Translations under genes and position numbers: made by a program
NCBI RefSeq assembly: GCF_020905375.1
Contig: NZ_JAJJBU010000035.1
Location: 1-52,487 of the forward strand
DNA: 52,487 nucleotides
Source: Arthrobacter cryoconiti
GTDB taxonomy: Bacteria; Actinomycetota; Actinomycetes; Actinomycetales; Micrococcaceae
Direction: 5' to 3'
Shown: in pieces, positions 5,687-52,329 of the stretch
Layout: every line of letters starts with the position of its first letter
How positions within the stretch are numbered: the stretch's first letter is position 1
The notes under the pieces: generated by a model
What the model saw: the letters and a program-made list of their open reading frames with translations, nothing else
The model's database searches: none
What the model was told of the DNA's origin: nothing

Positions 5687-5741
5687 TTCTCCACACTAGG
5701 CCAGCGCGGCAATGTACGGGAAATTCTCTTCGTGTAAGCCC

Positions 5742-6557: not shown

Positions 6558-6609
6558 TATGATCGTCGTCCTCCCCATGGCTGATTGTTGAATACAGTGC
6601 CAGCATAAC

Positions 6610-7929: not shown

Positions 7930-8045
7930 GCTGTGAATACTCCCCAATGCGGAATCCTGGATCGCCCAGATAATCGTGAACTGCGCCGGGTCGTTAGCGC
8001 TGGGATACGCAAGCAAGGTCCAGAGTTCTAAGACAGAATAGAAAC

Positions 8046-8744
8046 ATGCGACTGATTTTGATACGGCATGGCCAGACCCCGAACAATATCCTAAGCCTGC
8101 TTGACACGGCTGCCCCGGGTCCCGGGCTGACGGATTTGGGGCACTCGCAGGCAGAGGCTGTCCCTGCCGCGCTGGCCCAAGAAGAAGTCGAAGGTCTCTA
8201 CATTTCCAATCTGACGCGAACCGCATTGACAGCGGCGCCGTTGGCAAATCAGCGTTCATTGCAGCCTCTAGTCCGCGAAGGACTCAGGGAAATCAGTGCC
8301 GGCACATTGGAAATGAAGGGGGATCTGCCCTCGGTGATGGCTTATCTGGAGACAGTGAAAGCCTGGCTCTCCGGTGACTTATCCGCCCGTATGCCTGGTG
8401 CCGAGACGGGCTTTGACGTACTGGAGCGCTTTGATGCGGTAGTCGATGAAGCCGCTGCCAGCGGAGCCGGAACCGTAGCCATGGTCAGCCATGGAGCCAT
8501 GATCAGGTTTTGGGCCGGGTACCGGGCCACCAATCTGGACTGGTCAGAGGCCAAGTACCAGGAACTCTCCAACACCGGAATTGTCACCTTGACCGGTGCC
8601 CCATCCGGCAATGCTGCCCCGGGGGGATGGGACATCCTTAGTTGGCAAGGCACCCCGGCAGGTGGTGTCAGTGGGACTGACGGTCCGACGGCGGAGCCCA
8701 GCGCGCTCCAGCAATACGTCAGCGGTGGCTATGAAAAATCCTGA
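8046..8744 (+). CDS. Histidine phosphatase (phosphoglycerate mutase family)
   Basis: The 232-residue enzyme opens with LILIRHGQTPNN, the RHG catalytic motif in which the histidine is phosphorylated. The partner histidine is in VAMVSHGAMIRFW near residue 150. Family members dephosphorylate small metabolites or proteins; this one is too short and divergent to be called glycolytic PGM. Its 3' end overlaps the sensor-kinase start by 14 bp, so the three genes 8046-10697 likely form one transcript. Confidence 0.87.
   Translation: MRLILIRHGQTPNNILSLLDTAAPGPGLTDLGHSQAEAVPAALAQEEVEGLYISNLTRTALTAAPLANQRSLQPLVREGLREISAGTLEMKGDLPSVMAYLETVKAWLSGDLSARMPGAETGFDVLERFDAVVDEAAASGAGTVAMVSHGAMIRFWAGYRATNLDWSEAKYQELSNTGIVTLTGAPSGNAAPGGWDILSWQGTPAGGVSGTDGPTAEPSALQQYVSGGYEKS

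Positions 8745-31505: not shown

Positions 31506-31509
<4 letters not shown>
29854..31509 (+). CDS. kdpA: KdpA potassium-binding and translocating subunit
   Basis: The roughly 551-residue membrane protein has about 10 TM helices and four selectivity-filter-like loops, including [61 protein letters not shown] and [20 protein letters not shown]. These bind K+ in the Kdp complex. ATG 29854 was chosen; GTG 29839 or 29842 upstream would overlap the kdpF stop and are possible. The stop overlaps the kdpB start (ATGA). Confidence 0.97.
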
Positions 31510-33623
<2,114 letters not shown>

Positions 33624-33627
33624 CACT

Positions 33628-34209
33628 ATGAACGCCTATGGACGCCAACTTTTTACCGCAGTGCGATTCCTGCTGTGCACCACGCTGATATTGGGCCTCG
33701 CCTATCCGGTCTTGGTCTTTGGACTAGGTCAGGTCATTGCCCCGGCCCAGGCCAACGGTTCAATCGTCAGTGTGGACTCAGAAGCCGTCGGTTCTTCCCT
33801 GCTTGCCCAACCCGTCACAGGGGTGGACTTCTTTTATCCGCGACCCTCTGCTGTTGAGTGGGATCCGGCGGGGTCTTCGCCTAGCAACTTCGGACCCAAC
33901 CAACCAGCCTTGCTGGAGTCCATCGCCAAGAACCGTGCGGAGGTGGCGGCCCGGGAGAAAGTAGCACCGGACACTGTCCCGATTGACGCGCTCACAGCCA
34001 GCGGCTCCGGGCTCGATCCGCAGATCTCCGTGGCCTATGCACAATTGCAGCGAGCCAGGGTGGCCGGCGCAACCGGCCTCGGCGAAGCCGCAGTTCAGGA
34101 ACTAATCAGCAAGAACACCAACAATGCGTTGGTGGGTTTTCTGGGGCAGCCCTCCGTTAATACGACCACCTTGAACGCCGCGCTGATCCAGGCGCGCCGC
34201 GCGCGCTAA
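33628..34209 (+). CDS. kdpC: KdpC periplasmic-facing assembly subunit
   Basis: The 193-residue protein starts at ATG 33628, four bases past the kdpB stop. One N-terminal TM helix (VRFLLCTTLILGLAYPVLVF) anchors an outer domain with GSSLLAQPVTGVDFFYPRPS, SSPSNFGPNQPALLESIAKN, ALTASGSGLDPQISVAYAQL and the C-terminal FLGQPSVNTTTLNAALI. These are the defining blocks of KdpC, which stabilises KdpFAB and tunes ATP affinity. Length is normal. Confidence 0.96.
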   Translation: MNAYGRQLFTAVRFLLCTTLILGLAYPVLVFGLGQVIAPAQANGSIVSVDSEAVGSSLLAQPVTGVDFFYPRPSAVEWDPAGSSPSNFGPNQPALLESIAKNRAEVAAREKVAPDTVPIDALTASGSGLDPQISVAYAQLQRARVAGATGLGEAAVQELISKNTNNALVGFLGQPSVNTTTLNAALIQARRAR

Positions 34210-34230
34210 GGTACTGCAAGAATAGGCGTT

Positions 34231-36765: not shown

Positions 36766-36766
36766 C

Positions 36767-37441
36767 ATGACCACCGTTTTGATAGTGGATGACGAACCTC
36801 AGATACTGCGGGCATTGCAAATCAACCTGCACGCTCACGGGTACACGGTCGTCCCGGCAGCAAATGGGACCACAGCGCTGGCTGCCGCCCAAACCCACGC
36901 GATTGACGTCGTCGTACTTGATCTGGGCTTGCCGGACATGGATGGGTTGGACGTGATTTCCGGGCTGCGCGGCTGGAGTGAGGTTCCCATCATCGTCCTC
37001 TCTGCGCGGCACGGATCTCATGACAAAGTGGAGGCGTTGGACGCGGGTGCTGACGATTATGTGACGAAACCTTTCGGGCTGGATGAGTTACTGGCACGAT
37101 TGCGGGCGGCGGCGCGACGGGGAGGTTCTCAGGCGTCACAACCTCTCGTGACGACACCGGAATTTACCGTCGACCTGGCGAATAAGCAGGTGAGTCGGCA
37201 CGGGGAAGCGGTACGCTTGACGCCCACGGAATGGAACGTGCTAGAACTTTTGGTGCGTAATCCAGGGCGGCTGGTGAGTCAGGCGCAGATCCTCTCCGAA
37301 GTGTGGGGGCCGGCCTACGCTAAGGAAACCCATTACCTGAGGGTGTATATGGCGCAATTACGGCGCAAGCTTGAGGTTGATCCGGCCAATCCTGTGCACC
37401 TGCTCACAGAAGCTGGAATGGGATATCGATTCGCGTTGTAA
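36767..37441 (+). CDS. kdpE: KdpE response regulator (OmpR/PhoB family)
   Basis: The 224-residue regulator has receiver acidic residues DDE at 8-10, phospho-acceptor Asp52 in VVVLDLGLPDMDG, and Lys in DYVTKPFGLDELLAR. The C-terminal winged helix reads LTPTEWNVLELLVRNPGRLV, then YAKETHYLRVYMAQLRRKLE and a final MGYRFAL. It activates kdpFABC; the 11-bp tandem repeats upstream of kdpF are its probable binding array. It lies one base behind kdpD. Confidence 0.97.
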   Translation: MTTVLIVDDEPQILRALQINLHAHGYTVVPAANGTTALAAAQTHAIDVVVLDLGLPDMDGLDVISGLRGWSEVPIIVLSARHGSHDKVEALDAGADDYVTKPFGLDELLARLRAAARRGGSQASQPLVTTPEFTVDLANKQVSRHGEAVRLTPTEWNVLELLVRNPGRLVSQAQILSEVWGPAYAKETHYLRVYMAQLRRKLEVDPANPVHLLTEAGMGYRFAL

Positions 37442-38979: not shown

Positions 38980-39228
38980 GGTCACCAGCAAGATCCGGAT
39001 CTAGTCGAGAAGGACTGGAAAAGCCGCGCCATTCGGTAAGCCTGCACCGATTGGCGTGGTTTCGCATGCCGGTTTTGGGCTCCTGATGTCCTAGCTTCAA
39101 ACGAATCTTGGAGTACTGGCTCACCCCCCGTTGGAGGGGATGAGCTGAAGGGGCCAAAATAATGTGTCTTAGACCACAATTCACCTAATATTTGTGCTAG
39201 CCTAGGTCGCGCCGGGATCAAAAAATTT
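38980..39228. other. Intergenic region before the peptide-transport island
   Basis: No gene is visible between the DHA2 exporter and the binding-protein gene (342 bp in all). The region holds a 12-bp palindrome AGATCCGGATCT (38991-39002) and a weak hairpin GCTCA-C-CCCC/GGGG-A-TGAGC (39119-39145) that may terminate the exporter transcript. It becomes A/T rich from about 39160, where the promoter of the downstream island probably lies. Confidence 0.45.
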
Positions 39229-39246
39229 TCAATCAAAAATCGAATC
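39229..39246. promoter_or_regulatory. Shared 18-nt element, copy A (candidate GntR site)
   Basis: TTCAATCAAAAATCGAAT lies 75 bp upstream of the binding-protein ATG. It matches 17 of 18 bases of an element in the GntR/lyase intergenic region at 49172-49189, in the same orientation. Binding by the GntR/FCD regulator encoded at 48390-49100 is inferred. Confidence 0.65.
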
Positions 39247-39321
39247 AGGCGTCCGATGTCGCCAACGTGAAGTTCTGGTTTTTGAAAGTACCCCTACTAG
39301 TTGGCACAGGTGATGGACAAA

Positions 39322-40890
39322 ATGAAATCTAAAACGGGAAAGTTAACCGCAGTATTTTGCGCTTTAACATTGACCCTGGGAATGGCCGCATGCGGCACCG
39401 GGGCCAATAAGGCAGGTGCAGGTTCAGAGCTCAAGGACAAAGTGACCGTCGCGGTCAACGTCCAGCCGCCGACCCTCGACGTTCAACTGACTACGACATC
39501 GGCGTCGCAGATCATTATGAGGAACGTGTATGAGTCATTGGTGACGCTGGATAAAAACTATGAAGTGACAACGGCACTGGCTGAGAAGTACACGACTTCC
39601 GAAGACGGGAAAACCTACCTCTTCGATTTACGGAAGGGAGTGAAGTTTCAAAACGGCAAAGAAATGACGTCAGCGGATGTGGTCGCCTCGATGACGAGGT
39701 GGGCAGCGTTGAATGCCAAGGCAATTCAGTTCCTGCCGGGGGTCACCTTTACCAGCAAGGGTGACTACGTGGTGGAGATGACGTTGCAGGAGCGTGCAGC
39801 TGATGCTCTGAATATTCTGGCCGCAGGATCCCAGATGGCAGCGATCATGCCTAAAGAACTCGTTCCGCCCGCAGGTAAGACGCAGGTGAGCGAGTTTGTC
39901 GGAACAGGGCCTTACAAGTTCGTCAAATGGGAGAAGGATCAGTTCATCCAACTCTCCAAGTACGATGACTACAAGGACAACGGGCTTGAGCCTAGCGGAA
40001 ATTCGGGGAACAAAGCCGTCTTCGTCAAAGACCTCATTTTCCGGTTCATTACGGACCCTTCGACCAGGGCTGCTGGCGTCAGATCAGGTCAGTACGACAT
40101 CGCCACCAACATACCGGCGAGCAGTTACGACACTCTGAAGTCGCAAAAGAACGTCAAGGTATTTACCGAACCCACGGGTCACCTGATCTCAGTCTTCAAT
40201 CAGCGAAGCGGGCCGACTTCCAATCTCAAGGTTCGTCAGGCGATCAACGCCGCGATGGATTCAACGGCCATCATGAACACGGCATTTCCTAGCGAAAAGC
40301 TGGTCCACCTGACTGCTGACTACATGCCGTCAACCACTCGTTGGGCAAGTGATGCGGGCAAGGAAGAATACAACCAACACAATGTTGCGAAGGCCAAACA
40401 GCTCCTGAGCGAAGCCGGATACAACGGTGAACCGATCCACATTTTGACCTCCAGAGACTATGACTACATGTTCAAAGCTGCCGTCGTTATCCAACAACAG
40501 CTTGAGGCTGTTGGCATGAAGGTGGATCTGGATGTGACCGATTACGCCACTGTCGTGGAAAAGCGCAGTAAGGATACTGGCTGGGATATGGCCATGGCTA
40601 GCTTCGTCTACCAGAGCAATCCTTCTCAACTTTATGCAGTCAGCAGCACGTTTGCTGGTTCCGTCAAGGACGTTCCCAAGCGGGATCAATTGTTGAAGGA
40701 CCTGCGAGCCGCCGCTACACCTGAGGCGGCCCAGGCGGTGTGGGCTACATTGCAAGGCTACATTTGGACGGACTACTTGCCATTCGTCTTCTACGGAGAC
40801 TTCGACACCGTCTTTATCGGAACGGACAAAGTGCAGAACCTGGAACTCTTCCAGGGAGTTATTGGGCAGAGTCTCAAAGTTTCCAAGTGA
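39322..40890 (+). CDS. ABC importer substrate-binding lipoprotein (family 5, DppA/OppA type)
   Basis: ATG 39322 is favoured because AGGTGA lies eight bases upstream and it gives a clean lipoprotein signal: MKSKTGKLTAVFCALTLTLG followed by MAACG with acylated Cys24. Earlier in-frame starts exist at 39301 (TTG) and 39313. The 522-residue protein has the family-5 solute-binding layout: ITSASQIIMRNVYESL-type N-lobe (STTSASQ at the hinge), KFQNGKEMTSADVVASMTRW, and GTGPYKFVKWEKDQ. It is anchored outside the membrane and captures di/oligopeptides or peptide-like compounds for the permeases encoded downstream. The ligand is unknown. Confidence 0.93.
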   Translation: MKSKTGKLTAVFCALTLTLGMAACGTGANKAGAGSELKDKVTVAVNVQPPTLDVQLTTTSASQIIMRNVYESLVTLDKNYEVTTALAEKYTTSEDGKTYLFDLRKGVKFQNGKEMTSADVVASMTRWAALNAKAIQFLPGVTFTSKGDYVVEMTLQERAADALNILAAGSQMAAIMPKELVPPAGKTQVSEFVGTGPYKFVKWEKDQFIQLSKYDDYKDNGLEPSGNSGNKAVFVKDLIFRFITDPSTRAAGVRSGQYDIATNIPASSYDTLKSQKNVKVFTEPTGHLISVFNQRSGPTSNLKVRQAINAAMDSTAIMNTAFPSEKLVHLTADYMPSTTRWASDAGKEEYNQHNVAKAKQLLSEAGYNGEPIHILTSRDYDYMFKAAVVIQQQLEAVGMKVDLDVTDYATVVEKRSKDTGWDMAMASFVYQSNPSQLYAVSSTFAGSVKDVPKRDQLLKDLRAAATPEAAQAVWATLQGYIWTDYLPFVFYGDFDTVFIGTDKVQNLELFQGVIGQSLKVSK

Positions 40891-40982
40891 GGAAAAATAC
40901 TCTCCTCACCCATGACGCGACGATGCCGGATCCATGCAGGTCCTGTCCGGCCAAATGACGATTTGAAAGCATCGGCGCTTTC

Positions 40983-41036
40983 GTTGCTGGGCAGGGCGCC
41001 CCGGAAAATCCGGAAGTCCCGGCCCCGCCCAGCAAC
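40983..41036 (+). terminator. Intercistronic hairpin between binding protein and permease
   Basis: GTTGCTGGGC (40983-40992) pairs with GCCCAGCAAC (41027-41036); the interior adds GGGC/GCCC pairing and a nested CCGG-AAAAT-CCGG. No T-run follows. Its position suggests partial attenuation or protection of the binding-protein mRNA, which gives excess lipoprotein over permease in many importers. Confidence 0.7.
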
Positions 41037-41138
41037 CGTCAGTGGGACTATATGTGGTGCTCAGTCCTTAGCTCAAAAAAGATAATTCGCGTGCCAGGCA
41101 CCGTGCGCTGATAGAAAGAAAATTGGAGGATATCCACT

Positions 41139-42083
41139 TTGGTCAAGTTCTTGGCTAGACGATTACTGTCAACCATACCGATACTTCTGGTCGTTCTCAC
41201 CGTGGTGTTTCTCATAATTCATCTAACCCCGGGTAGTCCGGCAGCAGTGATTCTGGGCGATAACGCAACCGATGATCAGATTTCCAACCTCAATCACCAA
41301 CTTGGGTTGGACGCACCGCTTTATCAGCAATACTTTTTGTGGATCGCGGATGTCTTCAGAGGCAATTTAGGAGCGTCCTACTTCTTGGGGCAATCCGTCA
41401 CAAGTGCGATCATCAGTCATATCGGCCCGACCTTCGCCATCGCGATGCTCGCCGAAATAATAGCAGTCACAATCGCTATCCCTCTTGGTATCTATGCGGC
41501 ATCTCGCCGGGGGACGGTTAGTGACGTGTCCATTATGGGTGTTTCTCTTTTAGGAATGTCTATACCGAGCTTTCTGCTCGGGCTATTTCTGGCACTAATT
41601 TTTGGGGTAAACCTTGGCTGGCTTCCTGTCGCGGGTTATGAACCTCTCAGTTCAGGTGTCTGGAATTGGTTCCAGTATTTGATACTGGCATCCGTGGCGC
41701 TGGGCTCCATGCAGGCTGCGCTCTTTGTGCGGATGACGAGGTCGTCAATGCTTGATGTGCTCCGCAAGGACTACATCAGAACCGTTCGCGCTAAAGGCGT
41801 CAAAGAACGCGGTGTCATTTACCTACATGCTCTGAGGAACGCATCATTACCAATTCTCACTGTTGTTGGTCAGAGTGTTGGAGGTCTCATCACGGGTGCT
41901 GTCGTCACCGAAACCATCTTCAATATTCCAGGCCTCGGTCAATTGATAGTTGACTCCATCCAAAGGCGTGACCTTCCGGTTATTCAAGGAACAGTATTGT
42001 TCATAACTTTCGCATTCATTTTCGTGAATCTGATCGTCGATGTTCTCTATGGAGTCCTTGACCCACGAGTTCGGCTGAAGTGA
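41139..42083 (+). CDS. Peptide-type ABC permease (DppB-like)
   Basis: The start is TTG 41139, nine bases after GGAGG. The 314-residue protein has six TM helices, an N-terminal MVKFLARRLLSTIPILLVVL with HLTPGSPA typical of DppB/OppB, and the EAA cytosolic loop DYIRTVRAKGVKERGVIYLH, which docks the ATPase. The C-terminus VDVLYGVLDPRVRL is a family hallmark. It is followed after 12 bp by the second permease. Local base composition is lower in GC than the flanking core genes; for example 41161-41220 contains 26 G/C in 60. Confidence 0.95.
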   Translation: MVKFLARRLLSTIPILLVVLTVVFLIIHLTPGSPAAVILGDNATDDQISNLNHQLGLDAPLYQQYFLWIADVFRGNLGASYFLGQSVTSAIISHIGPTFAIAMLAEIIAVTIAIPLGIYAASRRGTVSDVSIMGVSLLGMSIPSFLLGLFLALIFGVNLGWLPVAGYEPLSSGVWNWFQYLILASVALGSMQAALFVRMTRSSMLDVLRKDYIRTVRAKGVKERGVIYLHALRNASLPILTVVGQSVGGLITGAVVTETIFNIPGLGQLIVDSIQRRDLPVIQGTVLFITFAFIFVNLIVDVLYGVLDPRVRLK

Positions 42084-42095
42084 AAGGAAGAAATC

Positions 42096-43106
42096 ATGCC
42101 AAATGTAAGTTCAACTAAAGTTCTTACCCAACGAACTTTAGTGGCGCCCTCTAAGCGCTCAATGTTCGTTCGGAAAATTATGGGAAGCCGATTTACAGTG
42201 TTCGGCGGCAGCATAGTGATCCTCCTCGCGCTCCTAGCCATCGTGGGTCCGCTTCTGACGCCTTACAACCCTTTGGAGTTGGGCCCTGACGCATTGGCGG
42301 GACCATCGGCGTCGCACTGGATGGGAACTGACGAGTTTGGCCGAGACCTGGCCACGAGAATTCTCTACGGAGCACGAACCTCGCTGGGAATCGGTGCGTC
42401 GGTGGCACTCATTACGGCATTCTTCGGCGCCACGATCGGGCTTCTTGCGAGCTACTACCGTGCGGCGGATAACATATTGATGCGCATCATGGACGGACTG
42501 ATGGCTTTCCCGAGCATCTTGCTGGCGATTTCCTTGATGGCAGCACTCGGGCCGAAGACCGAAAACGTAGTGCTTTCCCTGAGCGTGGTCTTTACGCCGT
42601 ATATTGCACGAGTCGTAAGATCTGCCGCACTTTCCATCAAGGACGAGCTGTATATCGACGCGGCCAGAGTCCAAGGCGTGAGCGACCTCCGTATCATTTT
42701 GAAACACGTCGCTCCGAACATACTTTCGCCCTTGGTCGTTCAAGTCACGTTCATCTTTGCGGATGCGATCATCAACGAAGCATCGCTGAGCTTTTTAGGG
42801 GCGGGTGTTCCTGCTCCAGCCCCGAGCTGGGGGAGTATATTGCTCGCGGGAAAGTCTGTGATTTTCGAGTCAAGCTGGATGGTTATATTCGCAGGCGGCA
42901 TCATTATTCTGTCCGTTTTGGGTTTGAATTTGCTCGGTGACGGACTCAGAGACTTACTGGACCCGCACGTTCAAAACATTCGTAAGAAGCGCAAACCGTT
43001 CTTGATTTTTCGCGGCCTCATTTCTTCCAGACGTGTCCCGGCTGCCTTTGCCGATGTTGAGCCCCTGCTCGAGGATCAGGTAGACGTCGATGAAAATCCC
43101 AAGTAG
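42096..43106 (+). CDS. Peptide-type ABC permease (DppC-like)
   Basis: The 336-residue permease starts with a cytosolic tail, then a first TM helix (FTVFGGSIVILLALLAIVGP) and the DppC/OppC signature HWMGTDEFGRDLATRILYGA in the loop after it. The EAA loop is LYIDAARVQGVSDLRIILKH. It ends with NLLGDGLRDLLDPHVQN, followed by a longer-than-usual tail of about 45 residues rich in acidic residues (EPLLEDQVDVDENPK). With the upstream DppB-like protein it forms the membrane channel. Confidence 0.95.
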   Translation: MPNVSSTKVLTQRTLVAPSKRSMFVRKIMGSRFTVFGGSIVILLALLAIVGPLLTPYNPLELGPDALAGPSASHWMGTDEFGRDLATRILYGARTSLGIGASVALITAFFGATIGLLASYYRAADNILMRIMDGLMAFPSILLAISLMAALGPKTENVVLSLSVVFTPYIARVVRSAALSIKDELYIDAARVQGVSDLRIILKHVAPNILSPLVVQVTFIFADAIINEASLSFLGAGVPAPAPSWGSILLAGKSVIFESSWMVIFAGGIIILSVLGLNLLGDGLRDLLDPHVQNIRKKRKPFLIFRGLISSRRVPAAFADVEPLLEDQVDVDENPK

Positions 43107-43140
43107 ACCACGTGAGAAAACTTGCGATAAGGAAAAGACC

Positions 43141-44841
43141 ATGAATATGGACAAGAGCGAAACCCAGGTAATCGATGCAGCGCCTTTTCAGCAGGACGGC
43201 GAGCTGGCCCTGGAAGTACGTGATCTTAGTGTCGAATTCGAATCGAATGGCGAATGGATTCAGGCCGCGACTGACCTCAATTATGATGTTTACAAGGGGG
43301 AAATCCTTGCAATAGTTGGTGAGTCTGGTTCTGGTAAGAGCTCAAGTGCCATGGCACTCTTGGGGCTGTTGCCTGAAAACTGCAGAACCTCAGGAAGCAT
43401 CAAGCTCAATGGGGAAGAAATCGGAAACCTCGATGCTGGAGGGCTTCGCCGCCTCCGCGGAAAACGGATAGCTGTAGTTTTTCAGGAACCGATGACGGCG
43501 CTGGACCCCTTGTATACGGTTGGTAAGCAGATTATTGAAGCCATCACTGTGCACAACAATATGAGTAAGAGTGCTGCGCGTGAGCGTGCGCTGGAGCTCT
43601 TGGAAATAGTGGGCTTGCCCAATCCAGAGAAGACGTTTGCTTCCTACCCGCACCAATTATCCGGTGGCCAGTGTCAACGTGTAGTTATTGCACAGGCCAT
43701 TTCATGTGATCCGGATGTGCTGATTGCTGACGAAGCGACAACAGCATTGGATGTGACGGTTCAAGCCGAGATCCTGGATCTGTTGCGAAACTTGCGCCAT
43801 CGTCTTCACTCGGCGATTCTGCTCATTACTCATGACATGGGCGTTGTAGCCGATCTTGCTGATCGTGTGGTCGTCATGCGCAGCGGGCGGATTGTTGAAA
43901 TTGGAAGCACCCAACAGATCTTCGCGAACGCGCAGCAGCCTTACACGCAGGAATTGCTTTCGGCTGTGCCTCGCTTGGGTGCGACAACAGTGCGTGAACA
44001 CGTTGTCAATCGGGAAGACGCGCCCAGCTTGTCCATGAAAAATGTGACCATCGACTACCCCAAGCAAGGCAACTCTCCGGTATTTCGAGCAGTGGAGGAT
44101 TTCTCTCTCGACATTCATGCCGGAGAGCTAGTTGCCTTGGTTGGTGAATCGGGCTCTGGAAAGACCACCATTGGCAGAGCAGTCATGGGGTTGGTCCCCA
44201 TAGCTTCCGGTGAGGTAAGTGTTCTTGGTCATGACCTATGGAAACTCAAAAAGGCCGCTCTTCGCGACGTACGCCGGCAAATTGGGATCGTCTTTCAGGA
44301 CCCAACCTCATCCTTGGATCCGCGTATGAAGATTGGGGAGAGTATTGGTGAGCCTCTCAAGGTCGCCGGTGTTGCCAAGGGACGGCGGCTTGACTCGATG
44401 GTCGAAGACCTGCTGGAGCAGGTAGAACTACCTCGAGCCTTTTTTGGGCGATACCCCAATGAATTATCAGGTGGTCAAAAGCAGAGGGTGGTCATTGCTC
44501 GAGCACTGGCATTGAGCCCCAAACTGCTGGTGGCCGATGAGCCAACATCTGCACTTGACGTTTCCGTGCAGGCGCGCTTTTTGGAACTGCTTCTGCAGTT
44601 GCAGCAGAATCTGCAATTCGCTTGTCTGTTTATCAGCCATGACTTAGCGGTTGTGGATCTATTGGCGCACAGGGTCGTAGTGCTGCGCAATGGGAAACTC
44701 GTCGAAGAAGGACCTCGAGACGCAGTTCTGCGAAACGCGAAGGAACCCTACACGCAGCGCTTGATCTCTGCCGTTCCACTGCCTGATCCAGAGGCGCAGC
44801 GTATCAATCGGGAACGGCGCGTTGCGAGTCTGAGGACCTAG
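43141..44841 (+). CDS. ABC ATPase with two fused nucleotide-binding domains (DppD-DppF type)
   Basis: The 566-residue protein starts at ATG 43141 behind AAGGA. Domain 1 has Walker A GESGSGKSSSAMALLG, signature LSGGQCQRVVIAQAI and Walker B VLIADEATTALD. Domain 2 has GESGSGKTTIGRAVMG, LSGGQKQRVVIARAL and LLVADEPTSALD. Each is followed by the oligopeptide-transporter C-terminal extension (PYTQELLSAVPRLG and PYTQRLISAVPLPDP). Both sites look catalytically intact. One polypeptide thus replaces the separate DppD and DppF subunits and powers the import complex encoded just upstream. Confidence 0.95.
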   Translation: MNMDKSETQVIDAAPFQQDGELALEVRDLSVEFESNGEWIQAATDLNYDVYKGEILAIVGESGSGKSSSAMALLGLLPENCRTSGSIKLNGEEIGNLDAGGLRRLRGKRIAVVFQEPMTALDPLYTVGKQIIEAITVHNNMSKSAARERALELLEIVGLPNPEKTFASYPHQLSGGQCQRVVIAQAISCDPDVLIADEATTALDVTVQAEILDLLRNLRHRLHSAILLITHDMGVVADLADRVVVMRSGRIVEIGSTQQIFANAQQPYTQELLSAVPRLGATTVREHVVNREDAPSLSMKNVTIDYPKQGNSPVFRAVEDFSLDIHAGELVALVGESGSGKTTIGRAVMGLVPIASGEVSVLGHDLWKLKKAALRDVRRQIGIVFQDPTSSLDPRMKIGESIGEPLKVAGVAKGRRLDSMVEDLLEQVELPRAFFGRYPNELSGGQKQRVVIARALALSPKLLVADEPTSALDVSVQARFLELLLQLQQNLQFACLFISHDLAVVDLLAHRVVVLRNGKLVEEGPRDAVLRNAKEPYTQRLISAVPLPDPEAQRINRERRVASLRT

Positions 44842-44982
44842 CCGCTTGTTACGTACTAGCTCCGGGTGAGAGTAAACATTCTTAGGACGGAACCGAATGT
44901 GAGATTGCTTTAGAGCAGCTGCCGACCTTGCCGAACAGGGTCTATTTGCATGGTTCCCGACACATCGAAAGGAAGTAGATTG

Positions 44983-47097
44983 ATGATCGTTAGTGCGAAT
45001 GAGGAGGTCATGGACACCGTCGCGAAGACGCCCGAAAACGCGGAGCAGAAGACGGTTTTTCACGACCTAGACGACTACCTTGGGCTTCGCCGCCAGGGCA
45101 CACTGGCACTTTCCCCCGACGGCTCCATGCTCGTGGCGGAGGCTGCGGAACTTGAGCAGAAGAAGAATGACTGGGTGAACGCACTTTGGCAGATCGATCT
45201 CGAAGGCGCCCTGCCAGCGCGCCGGATAACTCGATCATCCGCTGGCACCAGGGCAGCAGCGTTCCTTCCCGATGGATCACTACTCTTTCTTGCCCCGCGG
45301 GGGCCGACGGCGGAGAGCGGTACTCGTAGCGAAGGGGAGCCGCAGGGCTTGTCACTGTGGAAATTGTCTTCGGATGCGGGGACTGAGGCCGAACAGCTAG
45401 CAGTGAACCAGCAAGGAGGGTTCAGTGCGCTGGAAGTCGCAGCCCACTCCGGCGACGTCATCTTGAAAGCGTCAGTGCTGATCGGGGCGGCTCCTGCGGA
45501 AGCCGGGGTGCGGACTCGGCAACGAGCAGAGCGAGATGTATCCGCGATCCTGCATGACGGCTATCCAGCGAGGCTGCGCCATCGTGACATTGGGCCGGAG
45601 CAGGACCGGCTATTTGTGACCAGCGACAACGGATCTGTTCAGTTGCGAGATCTCACCCCAGATGCCGAATACGGATTACTTCAAACTTCCTTTGATGTCA
45701 GCCGCGACGGAACGTTCATCGTGACTTCGTGGCAGCGAATCGAGCGTGAAGTCGAAATGACCTTTGAGCTCGTGAGGATCGAGACGTCCACTGGTGCCCG
45801 CACGGTGCTGGCCGGAGCGCCCGGAATGCTTTACGGCGGGCCAGTTCTCTACTACGAAGTTGCTCCCGCGATCTCTCCGGATGGCTCGCGTGTTGCGTGT
45901 GTCCGTCTGGAACAAGGAACATACGAAAGAGCAGACGTACAAAGTCTGTGCTTGGTGGACACCGAAGGACCTCGGGAACCCGTGGTGGTGCCGTTGGAGG
46001 GCGAGTTGCGAGCAAAGCTTCTCGTGTGGGCGCCTGACGGAAAAACGTTGTACTTCGTTGCCGATCAATCGGGCAGGGCGCCCATCTTCGCACTAGATGT
46101 CAGTTCAGCTCGCCTGCGCAGACTCGTCAACGATGGATCCTATTCGGGGCTCTGTGTTCATCCCGACGGGCAGTTGATCTATGCGGTGCGCTCCAGTTGG
46201 AGCGATCCCGGCAGCGTGGTCGTCTTAGATACCGGTCTGATAGACCAGACGCCGGTAGAGCTGCGTGGGCCAGCTCCGGTTCCGCAGTTGCCTGGAACTT
46301 TGAGCGAAGTGAGCGTTGTTGTCCAGGACGGGACGTCGGTGCGTGCGTTCTTGGCCCTTCCAAAGGAGGCATCGCGGGAGCATCCCGCGCCACTGCTGCT
46401 GTGGGCACATGGTGGACCCGTCAACTCTTTTAACACGTGGTCATGGAATTGGTGTCCGTGGCTTTTGACCGCCTGTGGTTATGCGGTGCTAATGCCCGAT
46501 CCGGCACTTTCCACCGGGTACGGTCAAGAAATGCTCCAGCGTGGCTGGGGCGAGTGGGGGAAAGCTCCCTTCAATGATTTGATGGCGGTCACTGATGAGG
46601 CTCTCACCCGGGAGGATTTGGATAGCACCCGAACAGCTGTGATGGGTGCTTCGTTCGGTGGTTACATGGCCAATTGGATCGCCGGGCATACTGACCGATT
46701 CAAGGCAATCACCTCGCACGCGGGTATTTGGGCGCTGGATGATTTTGGTGAGTCAACGGATCTGCCCAACTTCTGGCGTGCGGAAATGGAACGCGGGAGG
46801 ATCGTTGAGAACTCACCGCATCTGCATGCGCGCAAGATTGTCACTCCGATGCTTGTGACGCATGGGGATAAAGACTACCGCGTACCCGTTGGCCAAAGTA
46901 TGCGGTTGTGGTGGAGTCTACTCGCGCACCATGATGTCGATGAACCGTTGCCTCACCGCTTCCTTTATTTTCCCGACGAATCACACCGCATTCTCAGGCC
47001 CCGGAATCAGAAAATTTGGTATGAGACGGTTCGCGCATTTTTGGCCTGGCATGTCTTGGATGAGGGGTGGAACCCACCGGCGGACTCAACCTTGTAA
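44983..47097 (+). CDS. S9-family prolyl oligopeptidase/acylaminoacyl-peptidase
   Basis: ATG 44983 follows AAAGGAAG by seven bases. The 704-residue serine peptidase has an N-terminal beta-propeller (repeated LSPDGSML, FLPDGSLLF, ISPDGSRVA, WAPDGKTLYFV, VHPDGQLIYAV blades) and a C-terminal alpha/beta-hydrolase with Ser557 in MGASFGGYMANWI, Asp631 in THGDKDYRVPV and His668 in FPDESHRIL. The propeller limits substrates to short peptides. There is no signal peptide, so it acts in the cytosol, consistent with cleaving peptides brought in by the ABC importer encoded upstream. Confidence 0.95.
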   Translation: MIVSANEEVMDTVAKTPENAEQKTVFHDLDDYLGLRRQGTLALSPDGSMLVAEAAELEQKKNDWVNALWQIDLEGALPARRITRSSAGTRAAAFLPDGSLLFLAPRGPTAESGTRSEGEPQGLSLWKLSSDAGTEAEQLAVNQQGGFSALEVAAHSGDVILKASVLIGAAPAEAGVRTRQRAERDVSAILHDGYPARLRHRDIGPEQDRLFVTSDNGSVQLRDLTPDAEYGLLQTSFDVSRDGTFIVTSWQRIEREVEMTFELVRIETSTGARTVLAGAPGMLYGGPVLYYEVAPAISPDGSRVACVRLEQGTYERADVQSLCLVDTEGPREPVVVPLEGELRAKLLVWAPDGKTLYFVADQSGRAPIFALDVSSARLRRLVNDGSYSGLCVHPDGQLIYAVRSSWSDPGSVVVLDTGLIDQTPVELRGPAPVPQLPGTLSEVSVVVQDGTSVRAFLALPKEASREHPAPLLLWAHGGPVNSFNTWSWNWCPWLLTACGYAVLMPDPALSTGYGQEMLQRGWGEWGKAPFNDLMAVTDEALTREDLDSTRTAVMGASFGGYMANWIAGHTDRFKAITSHAGIWALDDFGESTDLPNFWRAEMERGRIVENSPHLHARKIVTPMLVTHGDKDYRVPVGQSMRLWWSLLAHHDVDEPLPHRFLYFPDESHRILRPRNQKIWYETVRAFLAWHVLDEGWNPPADSTL

Positions 47098-47156
47098 TTG
47101 ACTTACCCACAATTGGGTGCTGCCTATTTTTACCAATCCAGAAAAGGGGAAAAGTC

Positions 47157-48362
47157 ATGGGACTTCGTGAGGAAGCTGGCGAGCTCCAAGAGGAACTGAC
47201 TCGATTACGGCATTCTCTGCATAGGGAGCCTGAGATCGGACTAGATTTGCCGCTGACGCAGAAGAAGGTGCTTGACGCCATCGACGGGCTGCCTTTGGAA
47301 GTGTTCACCGGTCGCAGTTTGTCTTCCGTGACAGCTGTGCTCCGCGGATCCCCGGGCGGACCCACGGTGCTCCTGCGAGGGGATATGGATGCGTTACCCC
47401 TTGTAGAGCAGACGGGCGTTGGGTACGTTTCGGAAATCGCCGGTGCGATGCACGCTTGTGGACACGACCTTCACACCACGATGTTGGTGGGGGCAGCGAA
47501 ACTTCTCTCGCGACGAGTACACCAGATAAAAGGGAACGTCATTTTCATGTTTCAACCTGGCGAAGAAGGCTGGGACGGGGCGGCAAAGATGATTGGTGAG
47601 GGTCTCTTGGAAGTGGCTGGCGATCGTCCGGTGGCGGCCTATGGGCTGCATGTGGCAGCCGGCAATGTGCCGCTGGGCAAGTTCGCCACTCGTGTGGGCG
47701 CGTTGAGTTCTGCCTCGGCACGGATGGCGGTTCTGGTCAGAGGTGTGGGTGGCCACGGCTCGAAGCCGCACCTGTCCAAAGACCCCGTACCGGGGGCTTG
47801 TGAAATGATCCTTGCCTTGCAAGCCGCTGTTACCCGTAGTTTCGATGTCTTTGACCCAGTGGTACTTACCGTCGGTTCTCTCCACGGCGGCACTGCCAGG
47901 AACATTATTGCCAGCGAGGTGAAATTCGAGGCGACCATTCGTTGCTATTCGGAAGCATCAAGCGAACGCATCGAAGAGATCTTCACACGTATTTGTCGCG
48001 GGATTGGCGCTGCCCATGGACTCGAAGTTGACGTTGACTTTGCACAAGAATATCCGCCCATGGTGGGTTCGCAAGCTGGTGCAGTAGCGGCGCAAAAGAC
48101 CGTGACGGCACTTTATGGAGAAGACGAATATCTTGAGCTTGAGCATGCTGTGTATGGTTCAGAAGACTTCGCGTACGTGCTAAAAAGAGTCGGTGGAACA
48201 TTCATCTTCATGGGCTCGTGCGCACCCGTAGATGCCCCGGGAATCGTTGCCCAGAACCACTCCGATAACGTGATATTCGAGGACTCGGTGCTCTCACGGG
48301 GTTCAGCAGTACTCGCTGGGCTTGCCCTGGGACATCTGAATCCCGGAGATGGTCTGGCGTGA
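47157..48362 (+). CDS. M20D amidohydrolase/peptidase (HipO-like)
   Basis: The 401-residue metallohydrolase starts at ATG 47157 after AAAAGGGG. It has LRRGD-type entry VLLRGDMDALPL, the metal-binding HACGHDLHTTMLVGAAKLL, and MFQPGEEGWDGAAKMI with the catalytic Glu-Glu. The lid dimerisation segment is RGVGGHGSKPHLSKDPV. M20D enzymes (hippurate hydrolase, N-acetyl-cysteine deacetylase, indole-acetyl-amino-acid hydrolases) remove acyl groups from amino acids. This placement after the peptidase suggests release of a free amino acid from an N-acyl or dipeptide form. The gene converges on the GntR gene. Confidence 0.93.
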   Translation: MGLREEAGELQEELTRLRHSLHREPEIGLDLPLTQKKVLDAIDGLPLEVFTGRSLSSVTAVLRGSPGGPTVLLRGDMDALPLVEQTGVGYVSEIAGAMHACGHDLHTTMLVGAAKLLSRRVHQIKGNVIFMFQPGEEGWDGAAKMIGEGLLEVAGDRPVAAYGLHVAAGNVPLGKFATRVGALSSASARMAVLVRGVGGHGSKPHLSKDPVPGACEMILALQAAVTRSFDVFDPVVLTVGSLHGGTARNIIASEVKFEATIRCYSEASSERIEEIFTRICRGIGAAHGLEVDVDFAQEYPPMVGSQAGAVAAQKTVTALYGEDEYLELEHAVYGSEDFAYVLKRVGGTFIFMGSCAPVDAPGIVAQNHSDNVIFEDSVLSRGSAVLAGLALGHLNPGDGLA

Positions 48363-48389
48363 ACGCAACGGATGGAAATCCCCGCAGCT

Positions 48390-49100
48390 TCACAGCTCCG
48401 GGATAGCTGAAGCTTCCTTTTCCATGAGTTCTGACATTGCTTTAGCAGCCGTGCGAATGTGCGCACGAACCGCGCGTTCAGCCCCGCGTGCGTCGCCGGC
48501 GCGCAGGGCCAGAACGATGGCGCCGTGCTCGCTAAGTGATGCTTCGGGGCGTCCTGGGACACGGGTGGAGATATTGTTTCCAATGCGCATCTGTCCGAAG
48601 AGGTTGTCGGCAACGCCCACCAGCCGCTTGTTACCGGATCCGATCCAGAGGAGCTGGTGGAACCTGACGTCTAGATCGGCATATCCGGCTAGGTCGCCGG
48701 CTGACACGAAGGCTCGTTGTTGTTCAAGTAACACGTCCATGCCGTTGGCAACATCAAGGCGAGATGGTGACTGGATGGTTCGTCGGCAAGCGATCACTTC
48801 TAGCGCTTCACGCAGTTCGTAGATCTCCATCAGATCACTGGCGCTAAATTGTGGAACAAAGAATCCGCGATGTTCGCGGGACTCGAGAAGTCCTTGGCGT
48901 TCAAGGGCTGCAAGTGCCGTCCGGATTGGTGTTGGTGAAAGGCCGAGTCGGGAGACCAGAGGCCGCACTGTCACGCGGTCTCCTGGCGATAACTCTCCAG
49001 AGAGGATCAGTTTGCGGATCTGTGTGTGCGCCACGCTTACCAGGCCGTCTCCGCGAACGGCTTCCCGTTCCAGACTGGCCAACTCAACTCCGGGTGTCAT
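48390..49100 (-). CDS. GntR-family regulator, FCD (FadR) subfamily
   Basis: The 236-residue protein has a GntR winged helix (LVSVAHTQIRKLILSGELSP, then RPLVSRLGLSPTPIRTALAA and LERQGLLESREHRGFFVPQ) and an all-helical FCD ligand domain (LMEIYELREALEVIACRRT, with DLDVRFHQLL and a C-terminal SEHGAIVLALRAGD, RAVRAHI). FCD domains bind metal and carboxylate effectors. ATG 49100 was chosen; TTG 49115 is possible. It is divergent from the PLP enzyme; the shared 18-nt element in that gap and upstream of the transporter makes it the likely controller of the whole island. Confidence 0.92.
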   Translation of the reverse strand: MTPGVELASLEREAVRGDGLVSVAHTQIRKLILSGELSPGDRVTVRPLVSRLGLSPTPIRTALAALERQGLLESREHRGFFVPQFSASDLMEIYELREALEVIACRRTIQSPSRLDVANGMDVLLEQQRAFVSAGDLAGYADLDVRFHQLLWIGSGNKRLVGVADNLFGQMRIGNNISTRVPGRPEASLSEHGAIVLALRAGDARGAERAVRAHIRTAAKAMSELMEKEASAIPEL

Positions 49101-49171
49101 ATTCACAGGACTCAAGCTACCACCCTTGACCTACTAGCAAGAAGTATGTCAATCTAGAATCAAATTCAAGA

Positions 49172-49189
49172 TTCAATCAAAAATCAAAT
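49172..49189. promoter_or_regulatory. Shared 18-nt element, copy B (candidate GntR site)
   Basis: TTCAATCAAAAATCAAAT lies in the AT-rich gap between the divergent GntR and PLP-enzyme genes. Only one base differs from copy A at 39229-39246. Immediately upstream is GAATC-N8-GATTC (49157-49174), whose right half-site overlaps the start of the element, so several TTGA/TCAA half-sites are clustered here. Confidence 0.65.
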
Positions 49190-49337: not shown

Positions 49338-50336
49338 ATGAATTTGGCTAAGATCGCTCGTCGCCGCTACACCGTGGGGGCTACCCCTCTTGAGTTCCTT
49401 CCGAACCTCAGCAGAGAACTGGGCGGCCCTCGTATCCACATCAAGCGCGATGACCTGCTGGGTTTAACCTCTGGCGGTAATAAGACTCGCAAGCTCGAGT
49501 TCCTAATGGCAGACGCGTTGGCGCGTGGCGCAGACACGATCATCACAACGGGTGCGGTCCAATCCAACCATTGCCGTTTAACGCTTTCGGCAGCTGTTAA
49601 GGAAGGACTCAAATGCCGGTTGCTCATCGAGGAACGAGTAGAGGGTTCGTACAACGAAGAAGCCAGTGGCAACAACTTCTTGTTCCGTCTGCTGGGCGCT
49701 GAATCCATTACTCCAGTACCGGGGGGAACAGATCTAATGACTCGGATGGAGACGATGGCGCAGGAAGTCATCGCAGAAGGCGGACGACCCTACATTGTGC
49801 CAGGTGGCGGCTCCAACGCGCTGGGTGCCCTAGGCTATGTAGCCTGCGCGGAAGAAATACTCACGCAGAGCTTTGACGCGGGCTTGGATATCGACCATGT
49901 GGTGTGTGCCAGTGGATCCGGCGGAACACACGCCGGCCTGCTCGCCGGTTTCTATGGCAATCAAAGCGGAATCCCACTGACCGGGATCAGTGTGCGGGGG
50001 GCAAAAGGACCCCAAGAAGCCAAAATTCACGGTTTGGCGCAGCAGACGCTAGCGCTTGCGGGCGCGCAGCTGCAGATTCCGGTGGAACTGTCCGTGGTGC
50101 GCGACGACTTCGTAGGACCGGGCTATTCGCTCCCGACGAAGGAAATGACGGAGGCAATCAAGCTATTCGCACGGACCGAAGGAATCCTTCTTGATCCGGT
50201 CTATACCGGCAAGACTGCTGCAGGCCTCGTGGGGATGATCCAAGAAGGCTCTTTTGAAAAGGACAGCGACGTCCTGTTTGTCCATACCGGAGGCTCGCCT
50301 GCCCTCTACGCATACCCGAACGAGTCTCTGGGATAG
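49338..50336 (+). CDS. D-cysteine desulfhydrase / cysteate sulfo-lyase family PLP enzyme
   Basis: The 332-residue fold-II PLP enzyme has Lys49 in TSGGNKTRKLEFLMADAL, the nucleophile region VQSNHCRLTLSAA, the phosphate loop ASGSGGTHAGLLAGF and, near the end, DPVYTGKTAAGL and FVHTGGSPALYAY. In ACC deaminase the VY(T/E)GK position is Glu; here it is Thr, as in D-cysteine desulfhydrase, so ACC deaminase is unlikely. The same family contains CuyA, which turns L-cysteate into pyruvate, ammonia and sulfite. The racemase gene follows by three bases and a putative sulfur-oxyanion exporter comes next, which favours a sulfur-releasing lyase. Substrate is inferred, not shown. Confidence 0.85.
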   Translation: MNLAKIARRRYTVGATPLEFLPNLSRELGGPRIHIKRDDLLGLTSGGNKTRKLEFLMADALARGADTIITTGAVQSNHCRLTLSAAVKEGLKCRLLIEERVEGSYNEEASGNNFLFRLLGAESITPVPGGTDLMTRMETMAQEVIAEGGRPYIVPGGGSNALGALGYVACAEEILTQSFDAGLDIDHVVCASGSGGTHAGLLAGFYGNQSGIPLTGISVRGAKGPQEAKIHGLAQQTLALAGAQLQIPVELSVVRDDFVGPGYSLPTKEMTEAIKLFARTEGILLDPVYTGKTAAGLVGMIQEGSFEKDSDVLFVHTGGSPALYAYPNESLG

Positions 50337-50339
50337 ATC

Positions 50340-51122
50340 TTGCTAACCGAACCAGTTCCATCCCGGGTAGTGGGGATACTAGGCGGCATGGGTCCCTCTG
50401 CCACGGCAGATTTTTATGCCAAGTTGATCGCCCACACTCCGGCGTCGCTGGATCAAGAGCATCTTCGAGTGGTAATTTGGGCGGATCCTACGGTGCCCAG
50501 CCGTCAGGACGCCATTCTCGCCGGTGCTCAAGATCCAACGCCATGGCTGGAAACCGGACTGCAACGGCTCATGGACTGCGGAGCGGAGATCATCGTCGTT
50601 CCGTGCAATACCGTTCATGGCTACCTTCCAGCCGTCCTGGCCGGAAAGCCCGTTGAATTCATCAGCATCATTGATTCAACGATCCAGGCAGTCCAGCGCA
50701 GTGCGCGGAGTGGCACGATCGGGTTGCTGGCAACTGATGGTGCCCTTCTGTCGGGGATGTACCAGCAAGCTCTCAGCGATGCCGGATACGACGTTGCTGT
50801 CCCGGTCCCGGAAGATCAAGCGCTGCTGATGAACATAGTTCACGGGGTCAAGGCTGGTAGGCCTGGGGCATCTTCGCTCCAGGACCTGCGCCAGATTTTG
50901 GCGAACCTGTATGAGCAGGGGATTCAGAGCGTCATTGTGGGCTGCACCGAGTTGTCGACGTTGGTTTCGGAAATAGGGGATTCCGGCGTCGTGACACTGA
51001 TCGATCCAGCGGTCGAACTAGCTATCGCGACTGTGCGCAGTGCTCGGACCCACGTCCGAGCTTCGTGCGGTGAGCTGAACAGTTACCCAACACTGTCTCA
51101 TTCCTCCCGGGCCGTTAGCTAG
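50340..51122 (+). CDS. Aspartate/glutamate racemase family protein
   Basis: The 260-residue protein starts at TTG 50340, three bases after the PLP-enzyme stop, so translation is coupled. Both catalytic cysteines are present: Cys89 in IIVVPCNTVHGY and Cys202 in SVIVGCTELS. The N-terminus VVGILGGMGPSATADFY and ADPTVPSRQDAIL are typical of Asp/Glu racemases that act without PLP by two-base chemistry. Cysteate is a close structural analogue of aspartate, so a racemase feeding the neighbouring lyase with one enantiomer is plausible. The last 20 residues look unstructured. Confidence 0.9.
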   Translation: MLTEPVPSRVVGILGGMGPSATADFYAKLIAHTPASLDQEHLRVVIWADPTVPSRQDAILAGAQDPTPWLETGLQRLMDCGAEIIVVPCNTVHGYLPAVLAGKPVEFISIIDSTIQAVQRSARSGTIGLLATDGALLSGMYQQALSDAGYDVAVPVPEDQALLMNIVHGVKAGRPGASSLQDLRQILANLYEQGIQSVIVGCTELSTLVSEIGDSGVVTLIDPAVELAIATVRSARTHVRASCGELNSYPTLSHSSRAVS

Positions 51123-51243: not shown

Positions 51244-52329
51244 ATGCCCATCAGTAAAACCCTCCAGGAGCCCTTGCCCCGGCGTCGAGCGCGAAAAAAC
51301 CCGGTGCGCGAAAGCCGGGCACAGCTCATACCCGGGCTCATGGCCTGCACCGTGGGGGTACTTATTTCCTTCGGGATTCATACGCTGCTTCCCTCGCTCC
51401 CTGCGCTGACAGTGGCGGTAGTACTTGGAATCCTGTGCGCGAACCTGCCTCGCGTGCGGACGCCGACCGCCGGATCTTTTCGTCCCGGACTGGATTTTGC
51501 CGGCAAGAAGCTTATGCGGGCCGGGATTGTGGTGCTTGGCTTGAAGCTGAGCATCGTCGATGTCTGGGAGTTGGGCTGGGCAACTTTCGCGATCATTGTT
51601 GGCGTAGTCGTTCTGGCATTTACCGGTACTTATTTCTTGGGGAAACTCTTTAGGCTTCCGGGAGAGACCCCCTTATTGATCGCCGCCGGGTTTTCAATCT
51701 GCGGAGCCTCCGCCATTGGAGCGATGGCCGCTGCGCGGCGCATTCGCCATACTGATACGGTCATGCCGGTAGCGCTGGTAACTCTCTGCGGAACCCTCGC
51801 CATCGGCGTCCTGCCGCTACTCATGGGTCCGTTGTCTCTTTCACCAATTCAGTTTGGGGAATGGACGGGGGCTTCGGTGCACGACGTCGGCCAAGTCGTT
51901 GCAACGGCGCAAGTGGCCGGGTCCGCTGCGCTGGCGGCCGCCTTGGTCTTCAAGTTAACCCGGGTCATGTTGCTGGCGCCCATTGTCTTCATAGCGGCCT
52001 TGGCGACGCGTCGAAGCGCCCGCAACCAGGGCGTAGATGCTGTCAGCGGCCAGAAGCCGTCGTCGTTGCCACCGTTGGTTCCCGTGTTTGTTATTGGCTT
52101 CGTGGCGATGATTGTCATCAGATCGCTGGGAATCCTAAGTCCCGGGATGCTAGAGATCGGTTCCCTGCTCCAGGACGTGCTCCTAGGCGCCGCGCTCTTC
52201 GGTTTGGGCTCCGCTGTGAGTATCAGGGACTTGCTCTCCACCGGAATTAGGGGAAGCCTTGTGGCATTGCTGTCCTGGACACTCATCGCAACCCTGGGTT
52301 ACGGGGCAGTGCAGTTGATCTCGTTGTAG
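51244..52329 (+). CDS. yeiH: YeiH/UPF0324 putative sulfur-oxyanion exporter
   Basis: The 361-residue protein has about ten TM segments. Family blocks include LDFAGKKLMRAGIVVLGLKL, LLIAAGFSICGASAIGAMAA, GEWTGASVHDVGQVVATAQV and LLQDVLLGAALFGLGSAVSI. The COG2855 family is annotated as putative sulfate exporter; members encoded beside sulfonate-degrading genes have been proposed to export sulfite or sulfate. Its location after the sulfur lyase and racemase supports removal of the sulfur anion made by the lyase. The cytosolic basic N-terminus (RRRARKNPVRESR) is typical. An AGAAGAAGAG precedes the ATG. Confidence 0.9.
   Translation: MPISKTLQEPLPRRRARKNPVRESRAQLIPGLMACTVGVLISFGIHTLLPSLPALTVAVVLGILCANLPRVRTPTAGSFRPGLDFAGKKLMRAGIVVLGLKLSIVDVWELGWATFAIIVGVVVLAFTGTYFLGKLFRLPGETPLLIAAGFSICGASAIGAMAAARRIRHTDTVMPVALVTLCGTLAIGVLPLLMGPLSLSPIQFGEWTGASVHDVGQVVATAQVAGSAALAAALVFKLTRVMLLAPIVFIAALATRRSARNQGVDAVSGQKPSSLPPLVPVFVIGFVAMIVIRSLGILSPGMLEIGSLLQDVLLGAALFGLGSAVSIRDLLSTGIRGSLVALLSWTLIATLGYGAVQLISL

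Follow-up and report, generated by a model that had tools for sequence, protein, structure and literature searches.

The locus considered here raises the question of whether two near-identical short elements, about 10 kb apart, place a peptide transporter cassette and a set of genes for the breakdown of cysteate, a sulfur-containing amino acid, under one regulator. The elements are in a 52,487 nt stretch of Arthrobacter cryoconiti DNA (contig NZ_JAJJBU010000035.1 of assembly GCF_020905375.1; hereafter the window), one upstream of an oligopeptide-type transporter gene, and the other between a gene for a GntR regulator with an FCD domain (gntR) and cuyA, which codes for a D-cysteate sulfo-lyase. 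We think it likely from the sequence that both 18-mers are operator cores for the GntR/FCD protein encoded at 48390–49115, with joint control of the transporter and cuyA operons. What was computed here is the repeat itself, how rare it is, that it is conserved near orthologous regulators, where it lies, and which families the surrounding genes belong to.

The two sites and their rarity

Copy A (TTCAATCAAAAATCGAAT, 39228–39245) and copy B (TTCAATCAAAAATCAAAT, 49172–49189) are both on the forward strand and are identical at 17 of 18 positions. An earlier note had described a 17 of 18 base match in the same orientation about 10 kb apart, and a sequence lookup bore this out; its coordinates were exact for copy B, and those for copy A (39229–39246) are corrected to the ones above. 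One extra base on the left turns the 18-mer into a 19 bp imperfect palindrome (WTTNRAT, 5 bp, ATYNAAW), and the two sites are as follows.

39227–39245, forward strand: operator A, TTTCAAT-CAAAA-ATCGAAT, an exact 19 bp pattern upstream of the substrate-binding-protein gene
49147–49189, forward strand: operator B, four 7 bp half-sites at a 12 bp pitch, between gntR and cuyA

Site B1 (49171–49189) reads ATTCAAT-CAAAA-ATCAAAT. The extra half-sites around copy B that the earlier note had also reported are indeed present, and the array has an even 12 bp pitch (TGTCAAT at 49147, ATCAAAT at 49159, ATTCAAT at 49171 and ATCAAAT at 49183). A repeat search of array B reports the pair as a 17 nt direct repeat with 24 bp spacing. 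Alignment of 11 sites gives the motif WTTNGATTTTTGATTNAAW (read on the gntR strand, 28.3 bits), with a strong GATT-N3-GATT core and arms 5 bp apart. Across 13 sites the inverted arms agree at 3–6 of 7 positions and the direct ones at 2–5 of 7, such that both readings fit partly. By eye, the sequences that flank A and B outside the element are unalike.

At up to three mismatches there are three matches to the 18-mer in the window, the third being a degenerate copy (49148–49165) that adjoins copy B; in 100 dinucleotide shuffles of this stretch the largest count is zero, so none reaches three. The whole genome (3,598,525 bases in 57 contigs) has five matches at this tolerance, three of them in the window, and a reversed-pattern control has none. 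Of the two matches outside the window, one (L005) is within a reading frame of at least 150 codons and the other (L003) is outside any such frame. A check for numerous unrelated copies across the genome, with two mismatches allowed, returned copies A and B alone, both in the island, and only four of 147 genomes (this one and its relatives) have any match at that tolerance. The exact 19 bp pattern is at three places in the genome: site A, site B1 and one position within a reading frame. The core pattern GATNTTNGATTNRA, searched in 16 genomes, is at five places in this one, two of them sites A and B, and because it is also at zero to three places in each of six genomes picked without an orthologue of the regulator, this short core alone is unspecific.

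Conservation near related regulators

FCD relatives were matched in 22 further genomes of the genus, with no orthologue among them (the best by E-value is 35% identical). Closer relatives of the regulator are in other genera. At E ≤ 1e-35, the family has them in 4 of 395 genomes, the order in 7 of 396 and the class in 11 of 394, with the A. cryoconiti genome counted each time. The relatives from the genome collection (11 loci) include three near-full-length ones, in Corynebacterium alimapuense (75% identical), Arthrobacter sp. Soil764 (76%; listed in the family under a genus other than that of the A. cryoconiti genome) and Microbacterium sp. MPKO10 (54%), and a search of a plasmid collection gave 2053 records, every one below 60% identity. 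Besides the window we compared 16 islands (L042, L043, L044, L053, L054 and L071–L081); L077 spans 5.7 kb only, and G794, G827, G862, G899 and G933, from the ten non-own class genomes, are outside this set. The eight closest regulators are 52–75% identical to that of the window.

The element is present in nine of the 16 islands. The exact pattern is directly before the gntR match in L042, L043 and L053, and a one-mismatch version is there in L072 and L054; in L044, L071 and L073, and also in L054, the element is on the far side, before the neighbouring gene. Two sets of matrices, both partly circular as the first sites were chosen by eye or with window-aware matrices, rank the sites at the top: a five-site matrix with the window excluded places 49171 first (25.3 bits) and 39227 second (24.5 bits) of all window positions, with a top score of 19.2 bits on 20 random windows, and leave-one-locus-out matrices place the site first in all nine other loci (21.7–31.9 bits; best elsewhere 7.6–18.5 bits) and the two window sites first and second (27.9 and 26.3 bits; best elsewhere 13.4 bits). 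A de novo search, meant to remove this circularity, was run on the eight closest loci, the window excluded, with 350 nt taken to either side of the gntR match. The best shared 17-mer is TTAGATTTTTGATTTAA, with a sum of best identities of 99 of 119, and 20 shuffled sets give 87 at most (mean 84.8). The matrix derived from it ranks 49172 first in the window (25.0 bits) and 39228 second (22.0 bits), the next place scoring 16.0 bits. The search picked the L054 site before gntR, and in the other seven loci the same sites as found earlier. By both the de novo 17-mer and the leave-one-out ranks, the element is thus kept near orthologous regulators of other genera.

It is exceedingly improbable that the copies are a chance match or the remnant of a duplicated promoter. 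Both are in AT-rich intergenic stretches, which would suit such an origin, but the shuffles do not reproduce the repeat, the flanks of A and B differ, and the element is recovered in other genera without the window. We rejected this candidate on the shuffles, the leave-one-locus-out ranks and the de novo 17-mer.

The assignment of a GntR/FCD regulator beside copy B is confirmed by Pfam: the 241-aa gntR product scores 55.2 bits with PF00392 (cut-off 27) and 91.1 bits with PF07729 (cut-off 24.3), which places it in the FadR/FCD subfamily. An Asp and three His residues of the FCD domain (D-x3-H, H, H), which have a metal/ligand-binding role in the subfamily, align by eye with 3fms and 7xp0. The best NCBIfam model is TIGR03338 (phnR_burk) at 121 bits, short of its cut-off of 271.5, and the NanR model NF003011 gives 65 bits where 260 are needed. 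The recognition helix has TPIRTAL in the window protein and in its eight closest relatives (L042, L043, L044, L053, L054, L071, L072 and L073), and the element is near all nine of these regulators. The eight more distant regulators (L074–L081) are without TPIRTAL, and among them only L076 has the element. Of 29 loci with other FCD regulators in the genus, 28 have the usual RE in place of RT, as do all four own-genome paralogues compared, which are among 11 others matched in the genome. Among the flanks of FCD paralogues in the genus, taken as 200 nt from each match edge on both sides, partly coding and with the L034 stretch misplaced at a contig end, one of 58 is above 12 bits, scoring 12.0.

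These observations bear on whether the element is bound by some other regulator, for example a global one, with the GntR neighbour being coincidental. The half-sites are AT-rich, which would fit such a protein, but we regard it as very unlikely, as the element tracks this regulator from genus to genus and does not track its paralogues, is paired with one sequence of the recognition helix, and is limited to two genomic places at up to two mismatches.

Genes of the island and the position of the sites

The island contains the following features.

39325–40890, forward strand: substrate-binding lipoprotein of the oligopeptide type (SBP_bac_5; Pfam), the first gene behind operator A
41139–42083, forward strand: Opp/Dpp-type permease B (Pfam)
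42096–43106, forward strand: Opp/Dpp-type permease C (Pfam)
43090–44841, forward strand: fused OppD-OppF-like double ATPase (Pfam)
44950–47097, forward strand: S9 prolyl-oligopeptidase-family peptidase (Pfam)
47067–48362, forward strand: M20 amidohydrolase/peptidase (Pfam; TIGR01891 above cut-off)
48390–49115, reverse strand: gntR, FCD-type GntR regulator (Pfam GntR and FCD above cut-off; recognition helix SPTPIRTALAALERQGLLE)
49126–49131, forward strand: TTGACC, proposed −35 box of the cuyA-side promoter, its place resembling that of TTGAC in orthologous islands
49338–50336, forward strand: cuyA, D-cysteate sulfo-lyase (NF052482, 514.4 bits; cut-off 450)
50340–51122, forward strand: cuyB, cysteate racemase (NF052483, 242.8 bits; cut-off 190)
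51244–52329, forward strand: PF03601 (YeiH-like) membrane protein (Pfam PF03601 above cut-off)

The earlier gene calls were right, and curated models sharpen them in identifying the lyase as CuyA and the racemase as CuyB. CuyB interconverts L- and D-cysteate, and CuyA yields pyruvate, ammonia and sulfite (PMC11382572; here and below, citations refer to the parts of each paper that were available to us). The PF03601 protein, whose gene is after cuyB in L042 and L043 too, fails the YeiH sulfate exporter model TIGR00698 (118.8 bits against a cut-off of 232.6), and from its family is a probable sulfite/sulfate exporter. On the Pfam and NCBIfam assignments of CuyA, CuyB and PF03601, the pyridoxal phosphate-dependent lyase, the racemase and the exporter make up a cysteate-breakdown set. 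The SBP_bac_5 lipoprotein has no listed NCBIfam model above its cut-off. The real start of the M20 gene may be further inside the frame, because the frame overlaps the S9 gene, and the real start of gntR is perhaps the GTG at 49106. By eye, there is a TAGCTT/TAGCGT box about 7 nt before the conserved gntR GTG in the window (49104–49119), L042 and L043, and the gntR message would therefore be leaderless. Frames resembling KdpB, KdpC, KdpD and KdpE (potassium transport; by eye) precede the island at 31506–37441.

In eight of the 16 related islands cuyA is within 6 kb of the regulator (L042, L043, L044, L053, L071, L072, L073 and L075), and this includes seven of the eight closest-regulator loci, the exception being L054. 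The transporter genes near cuyA vary, with taurine-type ATP-binding cassette (ABC) genes in L043, below curated cut-offs, and an Na+/H+-antiporter-family protein in L042, L044, L071 and L073. In L042 a HisD-family dehydrogenase and a DegT-type aminotransferase are between the antiporter-family protein and cuyA (5698–8344), and there are similar frames, by eye only, at 10856–13460 of L072. HpsN is a HisD relative, and with a HisD-family gene present, another C3-sulfonate (dihydroxypropanesulfonate, cysteinolate) may be the starting compound in L042. We note two further features of these islands. In L054 (7802–9244) the first long frame behind one element encodes a 480-aa protein with a catalase domain, and in Microbacterium sp. 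MPKO10 (L044, 9910–9932) there is a perfect inverted repeat, TGATTGTAT-TTTTC-ATACAATCA, directly before gntR; it has the 5 bp spacing of the element and different arms, and the element itself is before the next operon.

The position of the sites relative to candidate promoters suggests the sign of control. The TTGACC at 49126 starts 42 bp before the middle of array B, and the hexamer 17 bp past it, TCAATC, is a weak −10 within operator B. In L042, L043, L044, L053, L054, L071 and L073 the TTGAC start is 40–46 bp before the operator centre, and the hexamers 17 bp past it are TATCTT (L071, L073), TAATCT (L044), TACAGT (L054) and TAGCTT (L053), with poorer ones, CACTCT and CAGGCT, in L042 and L043 respectively. 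The distance is 34 bp in L072 and 23 bp in L076, where the site covers a promoter-like TTGACT-N16-TAAAAT. The L054 site before gntR has no TTGAC box at the usual place. An operator that covers the −10 region or directly follows it suggests that the regulator is a repressor. GntR proteins include both activators and repressors, and one could suppose that this protein is an activator, or that it activates one operon and represses the other. The window sites do lack a good promoter, as activated promoters would, but the elements are positioned over or past the −10 region, not upstream of the TTGAC box, and in L076 the site covers both promoter-like hexamers; we therefore view activation as rather unlikely. 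Repression is the reading that we prefer, and we note that the repeat operator of Escherichia coli NanR, too, is described as lying downstream of where the polymerase binds (PMC8012715).

The placement of site A has a parallel in L076. There, a genome of 4.8 Mb has a single exact 19-mer, which precedes the binding-protein gene of an Opp cassette with an M20 gene. A regulator that is 39% identical to that of the window is about 8.4 kb away; the binding protein is only 26% identical to its window counterpart. Among the other islands, Opp-type permeases are at least 7 kb from gntR in L054 and L075, a whole Opp cassette is present in L074 as it is in L076, and the ATPase matches in L043, L053 and L073 are short and generic. 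The S9 gene has no match in any of the 16 islands (E < 1e-15). In the family, 188 of 395 genomes, own included, have an S9 match at E ≤ 1e-120, the best other match by E-value being 49% identical with none higher among the matches listed; this search covered the S9 gene itself, so a counterpart of the cassette may exist elsewhere. The role of site A is drawn from its sequence match and from L076, because none of the 16 islands shares the full cassette. About 52 bp upstream of site A there is also a palindrome, GTCTTAGAC (39166–39174), within TGTGTCTTAGACCACA (39163–39178), which could be the site of another regulator of the transporter operon.

Several observations weigh against joint control by this regulator through the element. 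Seven of the 16 islands (L074, L075 and L077–L081) are without the element, their best scores being 0.4 to 12.3 bits, with the weak 12.3-bit match before gntR in L077; L074 combines an Opp cassette with a 41%-identical regulator and a gene resembling that of the exporter, yet is without the element. L054 has both regulator and element, yet there is no CuyA above cut-off in its genome, nor in that of L076. With one mismatch allowed, the 19 bp pattern has 29 places in the A. cryoconiti genome compared to 16 for the reversed control, so weak further sites are possible. The operator, as described by the 11-site motif, is without the TKGT/ACMA boxes usual for FadR-subfamily sites. A strict promoter scan gives no promoter at A or B at its threshold, and site A is without the TTGAC box that accompanies the operator elsewhere. 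Finally, the full Opp-S9-M20 cassette is in none of the 16 islands, including the eight with cuyA. The absence of the TTGAC box and of the cassette would both fit a situation in which the GntR protein binds B only, with A a likeness by descent or chance and the cassette otherwise controlled, for example via GTCTTAGAC. This seems unlikely to us, as site A is the second-best window position with window-blind matrices and L076 has the same placement before an Opp-type binding-protein gene. The suggestion in the earlier note that transporter, peptidases, lyase, racemase and exporter form one regulon is favoured on computational grounds by the rarity, conservation and placement of the sites; it holds less well for the exporter, whose gene has no element of its own among the top-scoring window places.

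A proposed regulon and its relation to known systems

The island would represent a local regulon for catabolism, unusual in its operator and its cargo, and the element is very probably the operator to which the GntR/FCD protein encoded beside it binds. We infer binding by the GntR protein, repression, an inducer and the transporter substrate from sequence, and a simple scheme is as follows. A dimer of the GntR protein probably sits at the transcription start of gntR and of cuyA-cuyB (and perhaps the exporter gene) at site B, where two adjacent sites would allow two dimers, and a dimer at site A would cover the start of the oligopeptide transporter-S9-M20 operon. The block on transcription would be lifted by an inducer, a small acid (cysteate or one of its close relatives) that the FCD domain binds. 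The transporter would import a cysteate-containing peptide or N-acyl-cysteate, from which the S9 and M20 hydrolases would free cysteate; CuyB would racemise it, CuyA would split it to pyruvate, ammonia and sulfite, and sulfite or sulfate would then be exported. More tentatively, it is possible that an actinobacterial group of FCD proteins with the TPIRTA helix reads GATT-N3-GATT outside of the GT...AC rule, and that here it has captured an oligopeptide transporter and two hydrolases to give a dedicated regulon for using cysteate-containing (oxidised-cysteine) peptides or N-acyl-cysteate. If true, actinobacterial cysteate breakdown would gain a regulator, an operator and a likely class of inducer, and sulfonate breakdown would be tied to peptide uptake. 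The unusual recognition helix, found together with an unusual operator, would allow a clean test of DNA reading by FCD-type GntR proteins.

No operator for a cysteate regulator was found in the literature searched, which covers few subscription journals and was surveyed mostly at the level of paper listings, and no dedicated uptake route for cysteate-containing peptides or N-acyl-cysteate stood out in it; the available text of PMC8873060, from the Arthrobacter and sulfonate literature, has no mention of CuyA or GntR. Among organisms with HpsN, the CuyA route is reported in some Alpha- and Gammaproteobacteria and Thermodesulfobacteria (PMC11382572). The cuyARZ genes of Ruegeria pomeroyi DSS-3 are similar to the A. 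cryoconiti island in having a regulator, a cysteate sulfo-lyase and an exporter in one cluster; the available parts of that report mention no oligopeptide transporter and leave the family and operator of cuyR unstated (PMC4334477), and the R. pomeroyi racemase gene is called unknown in the sections of PMC11382572 available to us. The phosphonate-use regulator phnR_burk (TIGR03338) differs in its context, the neighbourhood here being one for sulfonates and not phosphonates.

The closest comparisons are with regulators of the FadR/FCD type. These share with the protein described here the GntR and FCD domains, an AT-rich palindromic operator and a position beside the target operon, and the weaker extra half-sites surveyed in the FadR subfamily, 7–12 nt from the site centre, are comparable to array B (PMC4494728). 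The subfamily rule is one of TKGT/ACMA boxes with the GT and AC usually 2–3 nt apart, NanR and BioR being exceptions (PMC4494728), whereas here there is a GATT-N3-GATT core without such boxes, and a TPIRTA helix where 28 of the 29 paralogue loci have RE. E. coli NanR is an FCD-type repressor with repeated half-sites and several operons under one repeat operator (PMC8012715), as is predicted for binding here. The two differ in that NanR has an N-terminal extension and recognises (GGTATA)3 (PMC8012715), whereas the A. cryoconiti sites are built from WTTNRAT at a 12 bp pitch.

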